Source of the DNA: Arthrobacter sp.
GTDB taxonomy: Bacteria; Actinomycetota; Actinomycetes; Actinomycetales; Micrococcaceae
Assembly (NCBI RefSeq): GCF_031179985.1
Contig: NZ_JAPSHJ010000017.1
Coordinates: 1 to 64,000 of the forward strand
Direction of reading: 5' to 3'
Length of the DNA: 64,000 nt
Positions 18,755 through 57,859 of this stretch are shown here, piece by piece. The position numbers were made by a program, and so were the translations under genes. Numbering within the stretch: the first letter of the stretch is position 1; every line of letters begins with the position of its first letter. The notes under the pieces were generated by a model. It worked only from the letters and a program-made list of their open reading frames with translations, searched no databases and was not told the DNA's origin.

Positions 18755-19990
18755 TCAGCGGACCCGTGGCGGCTGGTAACGGCCTGCTTGGTTTGCCGCA
18801 TGCGCCACCCATTCAAGTGGGCCGCGCCATTTGAGGATGGCGAAAAGGGTGCCAAGTAACACTGCAGCGGCCGCATGGGCGAAGTACATGCCGTCCTCGG
18901 TCCACCCTTTTGGCAGAGGTTGCCGGTACATCGCGGCGATCACCCACACGTGTGCCGTGTAAAGGCTCAGGGTCATGGCCCCCGCGCCCCTCAAGGGGAG
19001 GAGAAGGTCCAGGGCAAGCCATTCACCGAGCCTTCCCAGCAAGAGGAATGCACCAACAACTGCTGCCGCCACTGCCGAGGTATGAAGCAGGTCCAAGGTG
19101 GTGGCCGAGTGTGGAGCACTCGATGCCAGCCACCACCACGAACCGGTCTGCTGCACGCCGGACAAATTGACCTGCAGCACACTGTCCAGGGGATAGGACG
19201 GGTCCCTGATCAATTCCTGCAATGCTTCCCTGCCGCCCCAGTCATTCATCATCACCACGCCGAACCACTTGGCCAGAACGGCAACCCCGGTTCCAATCGC
19301 AACCAGCAGAACGGGAACCGCCGCTTTGATGAGGGCAAGACGTCCGATGACCAGCCCGACGAGCAGGTAGCTGAGCCACTGAAAGACCGGGTAATACCCC
19401 GTGAACAACAGGTCACCCAGCAATTGGGCCGGCGTCCCCAGGTCCTCCCATTTCGGATTGTGTCCCAGCTTCAGGGACGGGGAGGCTGAAAGGAGCCAGG
19501 GCCTCACCATAAATGCGACCAGGGGAGAAACCAGGATCCAAGTCCCTGCCATAATGCAAAGGCGCTTCAGGCTCATCCCCAGGAATGGCAGCACGCACAG
19601 GAACAACAATGCGTAGTGGACCAGGATCACTGCGACGTTGACTTCCAGCCCCCCAAGGAAAAGGCCGACGACGGCGATCACCAACACCCTTAGTGCGACC
19701 CCGCGCCTCGCGGCCCACAGCTGGTCCCCGGCCAGCGGGCGCTCTTTCCCTGTGGACAGGGCAAGCCCGATTCCTGCCAGCACCGCAAACAGGGCAGCCG
19801 CCCGGCCCGAAAAGGTCAGGCCCACCCATGTCGGGGTCAGGGCCGCGGTCCGCTCGAAGGTAGGCAGTAAATGGGTGGCCATCATGCCGAGCAGCGCCAG
19901 GCCCCGGGCTGCGTCTATACCTGACAGCCTGCCAGTTGATTGACCGCGCTTGATGGTCCGGCCGGCTGCAGCGGTGCCACGGGAGGTCAT
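18755..19990 (-). CDS. DUF418/heparan-alpha-glucosaminide acetyltransferase-like membrane protein
   Basis: Polytopic membrane protein of 411 aa with about ten hydrophobic segments. The N-terminal signature RLSGIDAARGLALLGMMATHLLP is that of the acyltransferase/DUF1624 group, and the C-terminal third (SLYTAHVWVIA...AILKWRGPLEWVAH) matches DUF418. Members are thought to move acyl groups across the membrane onto glycans, but the substrate is unknown. It converges on the dapB-linked gene; an ACGGGT/ACCCGT inverted repeat sits near the shared 3' ends. Confidence 0.8.
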   Translation of the reverse strand: MTSRGTAAAGRTIKRGQSTGRLSGIDAARGLALLGMMATHLLPTFERTAALTPTWVGLTFSGRAAALFAVLAGIGLALSTGKERPLAGDQLWAARRGVALRVLVIAVVGLFLGGLEVNVAVILVHYALLFLCVLPFLGMSLKRLCIMAGTWILVSPLVAFMVRPWLLSASPSLKLGHNPKWEDLGTPAQLLGDLLFTGYYPVFQWLSYLLVGLVIGRLALIKAAVPVLLVAIGTGVAVLAKWFGVVMMNDWGGREALQELIRDPSYPLDSVLQVNLSGVQQTGSWWWLASSAPHSATTLDLLHTSAVAAAVVGAFLLLGRLGEWLALDLLLPLRGAGAMTLSLYTAHVWVIAAMYRQPLPKGWTEDGMYFAHAAAAVLLGTLFAILKWRGPLEWVAHAANQAGRYQPPRVR

Positions 19991-20065
19991 GAGCCGATCG
20001 TCTCACATCGCGTCCCTGCAGGTCCGGTTGATGTTCAGGGCTTGGCCAGGAAGAGCCACTTGTTT

Positions 20066-20081
20066 TCGAATATATGTTCGA
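20066..20081 (+). promoter_or_regulatory. LexA (SOS) box before truncated DUF222 gene
   Basis: TCGAATATATGTTCGA matches the actinobacterial LexA site TCGAAC-N4-GTTCGA at 11 of 12 half-site bases. It ends 5 bases before the ATG of the DUF222 fragment, where bound repressor would block RNA polymerase. Confidence 0.8.
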
Positions 20082-20086
20082 ATAAC

Positions 20087-20533
20087 ATGAACGGCATGAG
20101 CAGTCCCATGGAGCCGGTCTTTCCTGAACGCAGCTTTCCCGAGCGCAGTTTTTCTGGACGTGAGGCCGGTCCCTCAGGGGTCCTCAAAGCGATGAGTCCC
20201 GGTGTCGTTGGCTTCCTGTTCCGGCGGCTGGTAGCCGGTGAGCCTTCAGAGGACGTGCAGTGGAACCGGGAAGGCACGGAGTTGGCGGCTCAGCCAGTGG
20301 GTGCTGAGCTCGCCCGGAGGCTGGCTGAGACAGATCTGGAGGCGCTGACCCCCATGGAGCTTTTCCATTATGTCCGGGCAGCCCAACGGCTCGCGGCGTG
20401 GGCTGAGTCGCTAAAGGAGGAGGCTGTGCAGCGATACTGCGACGGGTCTGATCCGCGCGATGGAGTGCCGCTTCACGAGGGCGGGAACGCCGGTGCCGGC
20501 AACAGTGGACGACGCCGGGGGAGTTCCACCTAG
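20087..20533 (+). pseudogene. N-terminal fragment of a DUF222/HNH endonuclease family gene
   Basis: Encodes 148 residues. The part LARRLAETDLEALTPMELFHYVRAAQRLAAWAESLKEEAVQRY is the conserved start of DUF222 (13E12-type) proteins, which are normally several hundred residues with a C-terminal HNH nuclease. Here the frame ends in a Gly-rich tail soon after, so most of DUF222 and all of the nuclease are missing. The intact LexA box indicates the parent gene was damage-inducible, as known for several 13E12 genes in mycobacteria. The N-terminus has a small FPERSFPERSF repeat. A short expressed remnant cannot be excluded. Confidence 0.75.
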
Positions 20534-32763: not shown

Positions 32764-32779
32764 TCGAATATCTGTTCGG
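32764..32779 (+). promoter_or_regulatory. LexA (SOS) box of recA
   Basis: TCGAATATCTGTTCGG matches TCGAAC-N4-GTTCGA in 10 of 12 half-site bases. TATGCT at 32787-32792 lies 17 bases after its left half, so LexA binding here would cover the -35 region of a promoter. Confidence 0.85.
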
Positions 32780-32922: not shown

Positions 32923-33975
32923 ATGGCGGCAGCCCCGGATCGTGAAAAGGCGCTTGAAGCAGCGCTCGCGCAGATTGACAAGCAGTTCGGCAAAGGCTCT
33001 GTCATGCGCCTCGGAGACGAGGTCCGGGCGCCGATTGAGGTTATCCCCACCGGTTCTATCGCGCTGGATGTCGCCTTGGGAATTGGCGGGCTGCCCCGCG
33101 GCCGGGTGGTGGAAATTTATGGACCGGAATCATCCGGTAAAACCACAGTTGCATTGCACGCTGTGGCCAATGCCCAGCGCCAGGGCGGCATAGCCGCTTT
33201 TATCGACGCCGAGCACGCCCTCGACCCTGAGTACGCCGCGAAACTGGGCGTCGACACCGATGCCCTCCTGGTATCCCAGCCGGATACCGGAGAGCAGGCG
33301 CTCGAAATCATGGACATGCTGATCGGCTCCGGTTCCCTGGATGTCATTGTCATTGACTCCGTGGCAGCCTTGGTTCCGCGAGCCGAAATCGAGGGCGATA
33401 TGGGCGACAGCCACGTGGGCCTCCAGGCACGGCTCATGAGTCAGGCACTCCGGAAGATCACCGGACGCCTGAGCCAAACCAAGACCACGGCGATCTTCAT
33501 TAACCAGCTGCGTGAAAAGATCGGTGTCTTCTTCGGATCACCGGAAACCACCACAGGTGGTAAGGCGCTGAAGTTCTATGCCTCCATCCGTATCGACGTC
33601 CGCAGGATCCAGACGCTGAAGGAAGGCGCGGATTCGGTCGGAAACCGAACCAAGGCCAAAATCGTCAAGAACAAAATGGCGCCCCCCTTCAAAATCGCCG
33701 AGTTCGACATCATCTACGGTCAGGGAATCTCCCGTGAGGGCGGCATCATCGATATGGGTGTCGAGCACGGAATCATCAAGAAGTCGGGTTCCTGGTTTAC
33801 ATATGATGGCGATCAGCTCGGCCAGGGTATGGAAAACTCGCGCCGCTTCCTGCGCGACAATCCCGAGCTTGCCGCCGAGCTGGAAAGGCTCATCAAGGAG
33901 AAGCTCGGCGTCGGAGTGAAGCCGGCAGCAGAGACTGAAGCCGCACCGAAGCTCAAGGCCGTTGACGGCTTCTAA
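32923..33975 (+). CDS. recA: Recombinase RecA
   Basis: Strand-exchange ATPase and co-protease for LexA self-cleavage. It shows [32 protein letters not shown]-type N-terminal sequence, Walker [41 protein letters not shown] and the L2 region [21 protein letters not shown]. The length of 350 aa is standard and no intein is present. Control appears double, by a LexA box and a PafBC-type promoter. The 3' end overlaps recX by 14 bases. Confidence 0.98.
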
Positions 33976-42964: not shown

Positions 42965-43714
42965 CTATATGGAGCGCAGGACTGAGACTACTTTGCCCAT
43001 AATGGTGGCATGATCGCCCAGGATGGGCTCATACTGCGTGTTCTGTGGCAGCAGCCATGTGTGGCCGTCCCGTTGGCGGAACGTCTTGACTGTCGCTTCA
43101 TCGTCCAATAGCGCGGCCACGATATCGCCGTTGACAGCGACGCTCTGACGGCGCACAACCACCCAGTCACCGTCGCAAATTGCGGCATCAATCATGGAGT
43201 CTCCCGCAACCTTCAGCATGAACAGCTCTCCGTGGCCAACCAGCTGGCGGGGGAGCGGCATAAACTCTTCCACCAGCTGCTCGGCGAGAATGGGACCGCC
43301 TGCGGCGATACGCCCGACCAGTGGGACCATGGCGGTGTCTGTTGCGCCTGCGAGTTCCGTCACCGGTTGACGGCCTACACTCCTGAGCCGGGTGGGCTTT
43401 TCCGGCCGTGAAGGCTCCGTTGTGCCTTCCTCCAGTGTCAGCGGCATCAACACTTCCATGGCGCGCGGACGCTTCGGATCGCGGCGCAGGTATCCGAGTT
43501 TCTCCAGCTGGGACAGCTGGTGGGTCACGCTGGACAGGCTCGCAAGGCCGACTGTGTCCCCGATTTCGCGCATGGATGGGGGATAGCCGTTGTCATTGAC
43601 GGACCGCTGAATGGTCTCCAGGATTCTCTTTTGGCGAAGAGTGAGGCCCTTGGGCGTCCGGGCATTCTGCGAGGCCCCTGCGGTGGCCTTGCTGCCCGCG
43701 GCTTGTGCTGCCAT
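42965..43714 (-). CDS. lexA: LexA repressor
   Basis: SOS repressor. The winged helix is [44 protein letters not shown] with [19 protein letters not shown]. The self-cleavage site is Ala-Gly in [17 protein letters not shown]; the catalytic serine is in [19 protein letters not shown] and the lysine in DDEATVKTF. The ATG at 43714 gives 249 aa; a TTG at 43723 would add three residues. LexA boxes upstream show autoregulation. Confidence 0.97.
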
Positions 43715-43864
43715 TTTCGCCAACGCCTTTCCATTTCTCCCAGCTTCTGAGCGCCAGCCGCCGGGGATGTTCTGCCTGAATGTCAGACCCTGCTGATCAA
43801 CTGCAGATGTGGTTGTCCTGATCTATGTTTCTTTGATCAAACGTAGGCCAGCCACGGGAGTTTT

Positions 43865-43931: not shown

Positions 43932-43947
43932 TCGAATATGTGTTCTA
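43932..43947. promoter_or_regulatory. LexA box 3 (LysM gene side)
   Basis: TCGAATATGTGTTCTA fits the consensus in 10 of 12 half-site bases and is the site closest to the divergent LysM gene. Confidence 0.75.
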
Positions 43948-56226: not shown

Positions 56227-56682
56227 GTGACTGGACTGATCAAAGTGGTGGGCGGGGCCGTCCTGGATTCGCTTGAAGAACCGACGCGCCTGCTTAGCGC
56301 CCGCCGTACGTCGCCACCGAAATTCGCCGGTATGTGGGAGTTCCCCGGCGGCAAAGTGGAACCTGGCGAGTCAGCAGAGAACGCGCTGCATCGTGAGTTG
56401 AGGGAAGAACTAGGCATAGGGGTTCGCCTGGGTGCAGAGCTTCATTCAGGGCTGGAGGACGGGTGGCCGCTGAACCCCAACGCCTCAATGCGTGTGTGGT
56501 TCGCCGAAATCGCTGAGGGCGTCCCGGCCCCTCTGGAGGACCACGACGAATTGCGCTGGGTGGAACTTGGTTCCGACGCCCAGGCGCTTGATCTTCCGTG
56601 GATTCCGGCCGATCTTCCAATCGTGCGCAGGCTGCTGGAAACAGTAACGCACCAGGCAAGGAGTGGAGTCAGAACAACATAG
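56227..56682 (+). CDS. MutT-type Nudix hydrolase
   Basis: 151-residue (d)NTP pyrophosphohydrolase of the MutT group, which removes 8-oxo-dGTP from the nucleotide pool. The Nudix box is complete: GGKVEPGESAENALHRELREELGI, and LSARRTSPPKFAGMWEFPGG before it is typical of MutT. Its end overlaps the converging radical SAM gene by 14 bases. Confidence 0.9.
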   Translation: MTGLIKVVGGAVLDSLEEPTRLLSARRTSPPKFAGMWEFPGGKVEPGESAENALHRELREELGIGVRLGAELHSGLEDGWPLNPNASMRVWFAEIAEGVPAPLEDHDELRWVELGSDAQALDLPWIPADLPIVRRLLETVTHQARSGVRTT

Positions 56683-57835
56683 GCTGCGCGGGGGCCTGGC
56701 TTGGCCGGGTGCGAACGGCTGTTTCCTCTTCCGGTCCGGGAATAAGGCCCGCCGGATACTGGGCTTCTTCATCCCTGGCATCAAGCGTGCCAGCCGACTG
56801 AGCCCCAGCGTTTTGAGTGGCTCCGGCCTCCATGTCCCTATGGCTGAAACCTGAAGCGTCAGTGAAACCGTGCAGCTTTTTGAAGTATTTGACCCGGCCC
56901 GCGAGCCACATCCGGTATTCCTTGGACGCATACGAACCTGAGGCATACAAGCGGCCGTATCTACCTGCGAGTTCCGGGTGGTGAGCGGCGATCCACTTCA
57001 TGAACCATTCCCTTGTTCCCGGTTTCAGGTAAAGCGCCCCGGCGGTAACCCCGGTTGCGCCGGCTTGTGCGAGCGAACTGAAGAGGTGGTCCAGTGCCTC
57101 GTCGCTATCGGAAAGCCACGGCAGAATGGGCATTGCCATCACTCCGCAGGGCAACCCCGCTTCCCGCAGGCGCATGACCAGTTTCAAGCGGGCCCGGGGT
57201 CCGGGCGTCCCCGGCTCGATAGCCTCTGACAATTTTTCGTCCGTCATTGCCAGGGAGATGCCTATGCCCACAGGTACCTGGGTTGCGGCATGTTTGAGCA
57301 GCGGTATGTCCCTGGCAAGGAGCGTGCCCTTGGTAAGAATGGATAGGGGAGTACCCGAGTCCGCCAACGCGCCGATAATGCCCGGCATGAGCTGATAACG
57401 CCCTTCGGCCCGCTGGTAAGGGTCCGTATTGGTGCCCAGCGCCACTTGGTGGTGCCCCCACGAGGGCTTGGCTAATTCCCTTTTGAGGACCTCGACTGCA
57501 TTGATCTTCACTACCACCTGACTGTCAAAGTCAAGGCCGGCGTCGAAGTCCAAATAGGTGTGGGACTTGCGGGCAAAGCAGTAGACGCAGGCGTGACTGC
57601 AGCCACGGTAGGGGTTGATGGTCCATTCGAAGGGCATCCGGGATCCGGCAGGGACCTTATTGAGGACCGATTTGGCAGCCACCTCGTGAAAGGTAATTCC
57701 CGCAAATTCAGGCGTGGTGACGGATCGGACAAGCCCGGCGAGAGGCAACAAAGCGTCGGACGGCGCGGCTGCGGCAGCCTCATCCTTGTTGCCGTCTTCA
57801 GCAACCGGGGTGATTGCCTGTGCGTCCCATCTCAT
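56669..57835 (-). CDS. Rv2578c/PA0069-type radical SAM protein, SOS-controlled
   Basis: A 388-residue radical SAM enzyme. FEWTINPYRGCSHACVYCFARKSHTYL holds the CX3CX2C cluster motif at about residues 80-87; VALGTNTDPYQRAEGRYQLMPGI and SILTKGTLLARDI follow. The family resembles spore photoproduct lyase but its reaction is unknown. Two things point to DNA repair. A LexA box lies 8 bases before the ATG. The C-terminus is QPMLF, fitting the sliding-clamp-binding pattern QxxLF, after a low-complexity tail that would let it reach the clamp. It ends inside the mutT 3' end. Confidence 0.85.
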   Translation of the reverse strand: MRWDAQAITPVAEDGNKDEAAAAAPSDALLPLAGLVRSVTTPEFAGITFHEVAAKSVLNKVPAGSRMPFEWTINPYRGCSHACVYCFARKSHTYLDFDAGLDFDSQVVVKINAVEVLKRELAKPSWGHHQVALGTNTDPYQRAEGRYQLMPGIIGALADSGTPLSILTKGTLLARDIPLLKHAATQVPVGIGISLAMTDEKLSEAIEPGTPGPRARLKLVMRLREAGLPCGVMAMPILPWLSDSDEALDHLFSSLAQAGATGVTAGALYLKPGTREWFMKWIAAHHPELAGRYGRLYASGSYASKEYRMWLAGRVKYFKKLHGFTDASGFSHRDMEAGATQNAGAQSAGTLDARDEEAQYPAGLIPGPEEETAVRTRPSQAPAQPMLF

Positions 57836-57843
57836 ACGTCTAT

Positions 57844-57859
57844 TCGAATCTATGTTCTA
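57844..57859 (-). promoter_or_regulatory. LexA (SOS) box of the radical SAM gene
   Basis: TCGAATCTATGTTCTA (plus-strand reading) matches TCGAAC-N4-GTTCGA in 10 of 12 half-site bases, the same score as the boxes at lexA. It ends 8 bases before the ATG at 57835. Confidence 0.78.

Follow-up and report, generated by a model that had tools for sequence, protein, structure and literature searches.

The window analysed here, a 64,000-nucleotide stretch of DNA from Arthrobacter sp. (contig NZ_JAPSHJ010000017.1, positions 1 to 64,000), carries at 56669–57835 on the (−) strand an open reading frame for a 388-aa protein, which has its ATG at 57835, begins MRWDAQAI and ends APAQPMLF before a TGA stop. 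The protein matched NF038135, the equivalog model of the Rv2578c family, over positions 1–316 of 317 (506.4 bits against a cut-off of 430), and the radical SAM superfamily model PF04055 (56.4 bits against a cut-off of 29.5). The NF038135 match stops at residue 324, so the family definition does not extend to the terminal motif. An earlier interpretation made without database searches (the sequence-only reading) had recognized a CX3CX2C radical SAM core, and this was borne out: residues 79–86 (57578–57601, (−) strand) read CSHACVYC, the motif of a [4Fe-4S] cluster, and its three cysteines are invariant in all 56 aligned relatives. It had also placed the gene in an Rv2578c/PA0069 group without a known reaction, and NCBIfam indeed assigns no reaction to either family. 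By the PA0069 model, NF033668, the window protein fell below the cut-off (218.6 bits against 360), with identity of about 30% in alignment, but the cores are homologous, and the PA0069 members examined have clamp-type ends and often LexA-type boxes. Within the Rv2578c family, the MRW/VRW N-terminus, the upstream box and the C-terminal tail described below are common to most relatives examined. Several orthologues (L050, L057, L052, L008 and others) are 500–700 aa long, as expected for inteins, and an intein-containing Rv2578c model exists in NCBIfam.

The gene converges on a mutT gene at 56227–56682, and the 3′ ends of the two overlap by 14 nt. This repair-type neighbour had been offered as support for a role in repair. 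Among 51 other loci from the window’s GTDB family, 41 gave a tblastn match to mutT; none did among the other loci searched, which include only about 1–2.5 kb of flank. The adjacency is lineage synteny; the convergence is real, but we rejected it as functional evidence.

Upstream of the gene, a LexA-type box had been proposed 8 bases before the start, and this was confirmed. The box, TAGAACATAGATTCGA (57859–57844, (−) strand), matches TCGAACN4GTTCGA at 10 of 12 positions and leaves 8 nt before the ATG. It is preceded by a −35-like hexamer, TTGACT (57870–57865, (−) strand), beginning 11 nt upstream of the box, and its end is overlapped by a −10-like hexamer, TCGAAT (57842–57847, (−) strand), which lies 17 nt after TTGACT and has its last base 6 nt before the ATG. 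The order toward the gene is TTGACT, TAGAACATAGATTCGA, ATAGACGT and ATG. Judged from sequence, this arrangement fits a sigma-70-type promoter with a LexA site that sits in the spacer and extends over the −10. It also suggests a leaderless or nearly leaderless message starting at or near the ATG, the start site being an inference.

A tighter pattern, GAAYNTNTGTTC, occurs four times in the window (shuffle mean 0.20), and three of the four sites are upstream of recA, lexA and the radical SAM gene. The first two serve as internal controls: the core at 32766–32777 ((+) strand) is upstream of recA (32923–33975, (+) strand), and that at 43934–43945 ((+) strand) is upstream of lexA (42965–43723, (−) strand), whose product has an S24 peptidase domain. 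On another contig of the window genome, the identical 12-mer GAACATAGATTC stands just upstream of a umuDC-like operon in which a UmuC-like ORF comes after an S24 peptidase gene. We assigned the names recA and UmuC from translations; the S24 domains are Pfam matches. UmuC, Pol IV and Pol II are under SOS control, and Rv2578c itself presumably belongs to the LexA regulon of Mycobacterium tuberculosis. With the same core before recA, lexA and the umuDC-like operon, SOS control of the radical SAM gene is very likely, LexA binding and induction at this gene being inferred. The fourth core, GAATATATGTTC (20068–20079 of the window), lies either within an ORF at 19940–20533 ((+) strand) or immediately upstream of its true start; by eye this ORF resembles a DUF222/13E12-repeat protein. 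A looser pattern, GAAYN4GTTCG, was not enriched genome-wide (38 + 40 occurrences against 43 + 34 for its reversed control), so we read no regulon from it.

Conservation of the box was examined in Actinobacteria. Matches to the gene, weak and partial ones counted, were present in 208 genomes (137 of 296 in one search, 75 of 120 in a second, with four in both), from which we examined 141 loci in 139 genomes, made up of 60 best-scoring loci, 80 chosen across genera and the window. We excluded seven loci that scored below 450 bits against our own profile, which left 134 members from 15 GTDB families and 51 genera, the window included, with start codons guessed as those nearest to the profile start. 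A box matching at least 9 of 12 positions within 100 nt was found in 130/134 members, whereas shuffled sequences gave a mean of 6.6 and a maximum of 15 over 200 rounds. Of the four loci lacking one, L138 has a 10/12 box 123 nt upstream of a start that is probably misplaced, L106 reaches a score of only 8, the start of L128 is unclear, and the LexA-like site of L112 is built on a 5-nt instead of a 4-nt spacer. The 5-nt spacing recurs in L150, from a Tsukamurella plasmid; at both loci the site lies shortly upstream of the gene (TCGAACAAAATGTTCGA and TCGAACGAGATGTTCGA).

The promoter arrangement of the window recurs as well. Among the 106 members with a box at −28 to −20 (window included), the gap between box and start is 8 or 9 nt in 96, the −10 position is filled by TCGAAT or TCTAAT in 80, and in 31 a TTGAC precedes the box by no more than 16 nt. 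One genus, g30, which by inference is Streptomyces, departs from this: in its 22 core loci the box is mostly near −46 and a GAGGAGG leader is present instead. In S. venezuelae, ChIP-seq and mitomycin C RNA-seq have placed vnz_31145 in the LexA regulon; its radical SAM product has been compared with enzymes that repair thymine cross-links (PMC9380542). As the box and distance listed in the part of that paper available to us differ from those of the g30 loci, we do not claim that it is the same gene.

At the other end of the gene, the sequence-only reading had described a flexible tail closing on QPMLF, a fit to the beta-clamp-binding pattern QxxLF. The tail was supported on both counts available: residues 342–388 (56672–56812, (−) strand) are predicted to be disordered, with pLDDT below 50 in the structure model, and the corresponding region is variable, with high entropy, in the 134 members. 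The window protein thus meets the description of Qxx[LM][FLIMV] on a flexible tail, its terminal QPMLF (56672–56686, (−) strand) being the candidate motif. Across the actinobacterial set, position entropy drops clearly only over the last five residues, where Q is found in 89, L in 119 and F in 82 of 134. The C-terminus is Qxx[LM][FLIMV] in 88/134 members, and in a further 12 Qxx[LM] lies among the last 16 residues; a terminal [LM]F without the Q is kept by 30, and four have neither. Permuted tails gave the terminal form in a mean of 0.09 cases (maximum 2) and either form in a mean of 2.3 (maximum 8), while 284 control ORFs from the same loci gave 0 and 2, respectively. Box and motif were found together in 98/134 members counting either form, and in 86/134 counting the terminal form alone. 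Lack of conservation of either QxxLF or the box among orthologues would have refuted the initial proposal, and it did not occur.

The seven excluded loci contain a diverged form of the gene, L114–L119, in GTDB family f21. All six have QL[TSA]L[VLI] ends and four of the six have a 10-of-12 box; in genomes G252 and G114 the diverged form stands beside a normal copy. The seventh excluded locus, L120, has neither feature.

We then considered PA0069-type relatives, taking the best 80 of 590 loci confirmed for a proteobacterial lead sequence, a sample that leans to the relatives of that lead and is mostly Proteobacteria with a few MAGs labelled as other phyla. In these best 80 of 590, the end is Qxx[LM][FLIMV] in 66, the motif lies within the last 16 residues in 12, one has a six-residue form and one has none by our patterns, giving a motif at or near the end in 79/80. 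Shuffled tails of the same 80 gave the terminal form in a mean of 0.23 (maximum 3) and any form in a mean of 3.6 (maximum 10); among 315 control ORFs of these loci the counts were 0 and 5. The near-terminal pattern is loose, as its presence in 2/284 and 5/315 control ORFs and in shuffled tails indicates. Two other operator designs were found in this sample: exact GTTCN7GTTC at 46/80 loci (shuffle mean 0.3, maximum 3) and exact CTGTN8ACAG at 14/80 (shuffle mean 0.16, maximum 2), which we take to be alpha- and gamma-proteobacterial LexA sites, respectively. No exact box of either design was present at 20/80 of these loci, and motif and box occurred together at 59/80. Seven PA0069-type members from a plasmid collection, three of them annotated PA0069, end in QLSLF, QLTMF, QLSLL, QGELF, QLRLF, QLRLL and QLSLGI; by eye, GTTCN7GTTC precedes the start in Paracoccus, Sphingomonas and Azospirillum, CTGTN8ACAG precedes it in Aeromonas, and no such box was seen before the start in the other three. 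Together with the GAACN4GTTC type, three LexA-type designs therefore stand before the same kind of gene, and the finding of all three across the relatives indicates that SOS-type operators and the tail are both kept as operator design changes.

That the window merely combines a random LexA-like site with a random QxxLF end could be entertained for one genome, in which both patterns are short and the looser operator pattern is not enriched over its reversed control. We give this possibility almost no weight, since conservation across the family exceeds both the shuffled and the control-ORF comparisons, and we rejected a chance motif at the family level. The expectation that a QxxLF end and a LexA box would co-occur across genera was instead met in both Actinobacteria and the best 80 of 590 PA0069-type loci, and conservation of box and motif supports an SOS-regulated, replication-linked role.

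Whether the conserved pentapeptide addresses the clamp is less clear for the window than for the family. The published clamp consensus is QL[S/D]LF, revised as Q-aliphatic-x-[L/M][F/L] (PMC3716654, PMC9690074, PMC13254535; available in part). The commonest ends among the best 80 of 590 PA0069-type loci are QLSLF (13), QLALF (10) and QLSLL (8), which on sequence fit the published consensus or its revision; the revised consensus is met by 49/80 of these ends, and by 64/80 if Met is allowed at position 2. Only 32/134 actinobacterial ends meet it. Among the terminal motifs, position 2 is L in all 22 from g30 and P, A, D or G in 27 of the 32 from the window’s family. The window’s QPMLF fits QxxLF, but it fails the revised consensus, having proline at position 2 where an aliphatic residue is wanted, and by its letters is a weaker clamp motif than the commonest proteobacterial forms. 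The pattern match claimed for it therefore stands, as does family-wide conservation of the motif, with the reservation that its proline lies outside the revised consensus. These deviations, shared by most actinobacterial ends, and the lack of binding data leave room for an SOS-regulated enzyme whose conserved C-terminal pentapeptide serves a partner other than the clamp. We think this improbable, as the motif is preceded by a variable tail with predicted disorder and the commonest ends in the best 80 of 590 PA0069-type loci are textbook clamp motifs. For the family, recruitment to the clamp is likely; for the window’s QPMLF we are less sure of it, DnaN binding being inferred in either case. 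UmuC, Pol IV and Pol II also carry a beta-clamp motif (PMC3716654, available in part), but these clients are polymerases, whereas the window protein is a radical SAM enzyme.

Of eight more distant relatives examined, one (L237) is without a properly read end. Three short clostridial relatives (L231–L233) end in EQLGF, QQSLFD and EQLSFF, of which only QQSLF fits the pattern, and no LexA-type box matching at least 9 of 12 positions was found in the stretch searched at these three loci. Loosely clamp-like ends without a LexA-type box suggest that the two traits can part. Radical SAM mobile pair protein B and the relatives from a Paenibacillus, a haloarchaeon and an archaeal virus have other ends.

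The sequence-only reading had likened the family to spore photoproduct lyase (SPL), a DNA repair enzyme. Our structure model, which has a mean pLDDT of 81.7 and is confident for the greater part of residues 30–330, supports this resemblance at the level of the predicted fold. Its best matches among solved structures are six SPL entries (VIA Z 20.3–20.8; Foldseek E 2e-9 to 1e-8), with the next non-SPL structure at Z 16.2. SplB (PDB 4fhc, 4fhf, 4k9r), an enzyme of UV-damage repair, is the closest solved fold, aligned over model residues 28–331, and the top alignment covers 266 residues at an rmsd of 3.5 and Z 20.8, meeting our criterion for an SPL fold. In contrast to SplB, the window protein’s family has an added clamp-type tail. 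The link to SPL in sequence is weak (E 0.0036–0.012) and consists of an EPGT...RL stretch and the cluster loop.

The catalytic residues tell a different story. SPL Cys140 (4fhc) is the hydrogen donor. Outside the cluster, no conserved Cys was found in the 56 aligned members, the best other Cys column reaching 54%, so Cys140 is without a conserved counterpart. Because hhalign against SPL covered only the half containing EPGT...RL, the residue equivalent to Cys140 could not be placed, and the argument rests on the absence of any conserved Cys. SPL has Tyr98 after the third cluster Cys, where 50/56 relatives have Phe. Conserved candidates for another chemistry include Tyr85 (55/56), Lys169 and Arg216, and in a GTNTDPYQ loop Asp138 is present in 56/56 and Tyr140 in 55/56. 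Beside the invariant Asp138, Pro139 is replaced by Cys in 7/56 aligned relatives. We conclude that, as modelled, the protein has an SPL-like fold but, judged by the catalytic residue, is no SPL; the resemblance proposed earlier holds for the fold and stops short of the catalytic cysteine.

These data bear on two further alternatives. One is a bona fide SPL that repairs the 5-thyminyl-dihydrothymine dimer under SOS control. To our knowledge, most carriers of the radical SAM gene make no spores. The closest fold is that of SPL, the EPGT...RL stretch is shared, and such genes have been named splB (PMC3323433, PMC8565304; available in part). Without a conserved counterpart of Cys140, we rejected canonical SPL chemistry and hold this alternative to be very improbable. 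The other is a LexA-regulated, clamp-bound radical SAM enzyme whose substrate is not lesion DNA and may be, for instance, a nucleotide, a replisome protein or a tRNA, with the clamp serving merely to position the enzyme at forks. Radical SAM folds accept many substrates, the reaction of the family is unknown, and PFL-activating enzyme, NifB, SuiB and RlmN are among the structural matches that follow SPL. Yet the SPL entries outscore the other matches by a clear margin and the promoter indicates regulation by damage, and we regard a non-lesion substrate as unlikely without dismissing it. A DNA-lesion chemistry is our best guess, drawn from fold and regulation only; there are no activity data.

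SOS control of SplB-like genes is already published. In both alpha- and beta-Proteobacteria (PMC3323433) and Bacteroidetes (PMC8565304), splB/COG1533 genes are predicted to have LexA sites upstream and to be SOS-controlled; a clamp-binding tail is not mentioned in the available portions of these two papers. In some archaea, SplB-like genes lie beside nreB, which encodes a protein with a PCNA motif of less clear-cut form, and a part in cross-link repair has been proposed (PMC4929162). As far as the accessible part of that paper goes, the clamp link there runs through the neighbouring NreB, a possible PIP-motif protein, so that the motif is in a partner and is for PCNA, whereas in the window protein it is in the enzyme itself and would be for DnaN. 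An Rv2578c-family gene serves as the integration site of a Streptomyces prophage; the authors of that study describe a link to repair as speculative (PMC12924846, available in part). We found no paper joining the Rv2578c/PA0069 family with the bacterial clamp, older subscription papers such as the Dalrymple motif survey being outside the search.

A strict dependence on DnaE2 was also considered and rejected. Co-occurrence was modest (72 genomes with both, 51 with the radical SAM gene only, 59 with DnaE2 only and 114 with neither; Fisher p 3e-5) and is confounded by lineage; 51 of the 123 genomes with the gene have no DnaE2, and in the window’s genome no DnaE2 match above the cut-off was found.

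Taken together, the conserved operators of three designs and the clamp-type tail indicate where and when the enzyme probably works. We favour, with a probability of roughly 0.6, an SOS-induced radical SAM enzyme that is recruited by the clamp and acts on damaged DNA by a chemistry other than that of SPL; clamp binding and substrate are unproven. In such a scheme, LexA bound in the core promoter, between the −35 and −10 and over the −10, would repress the gene, and DNA damage would release it. The last five residues of the tail would dock the SPL-fold enzyme in the DnaN (beta-clamp) pocket and so bring it to stalled forks or to freshly replicated, damaged DNA. There it would most likely direct radical chemistry at a DNA lesion, whose type we can only infer: a base that is cross-linked or modified in another way would be directly restored or processed, along a hydrogen-transfer route that would differ from the cysteine of SPL.

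A bolder version is possible, though we advance it only tentatively: that the family is a widespread and unrecognised radical SAM lyase of replication-coupled repair, SOS-induced and clamp-tethered, which at the fork or behind it directly reverses a DNA lesion, such as an intrastrand cross-link, by a radical mechanism that does without the SPL cysteine, in Actinobacteria, Proteobacteria and perhaps further. For a family of uncharacterised ‘radical SAM proteins’, the favoured reading supplies a concrete, testable role. If right, it would add a radical SAM enzyme to the partners of the clamp and open the search for its lesion.
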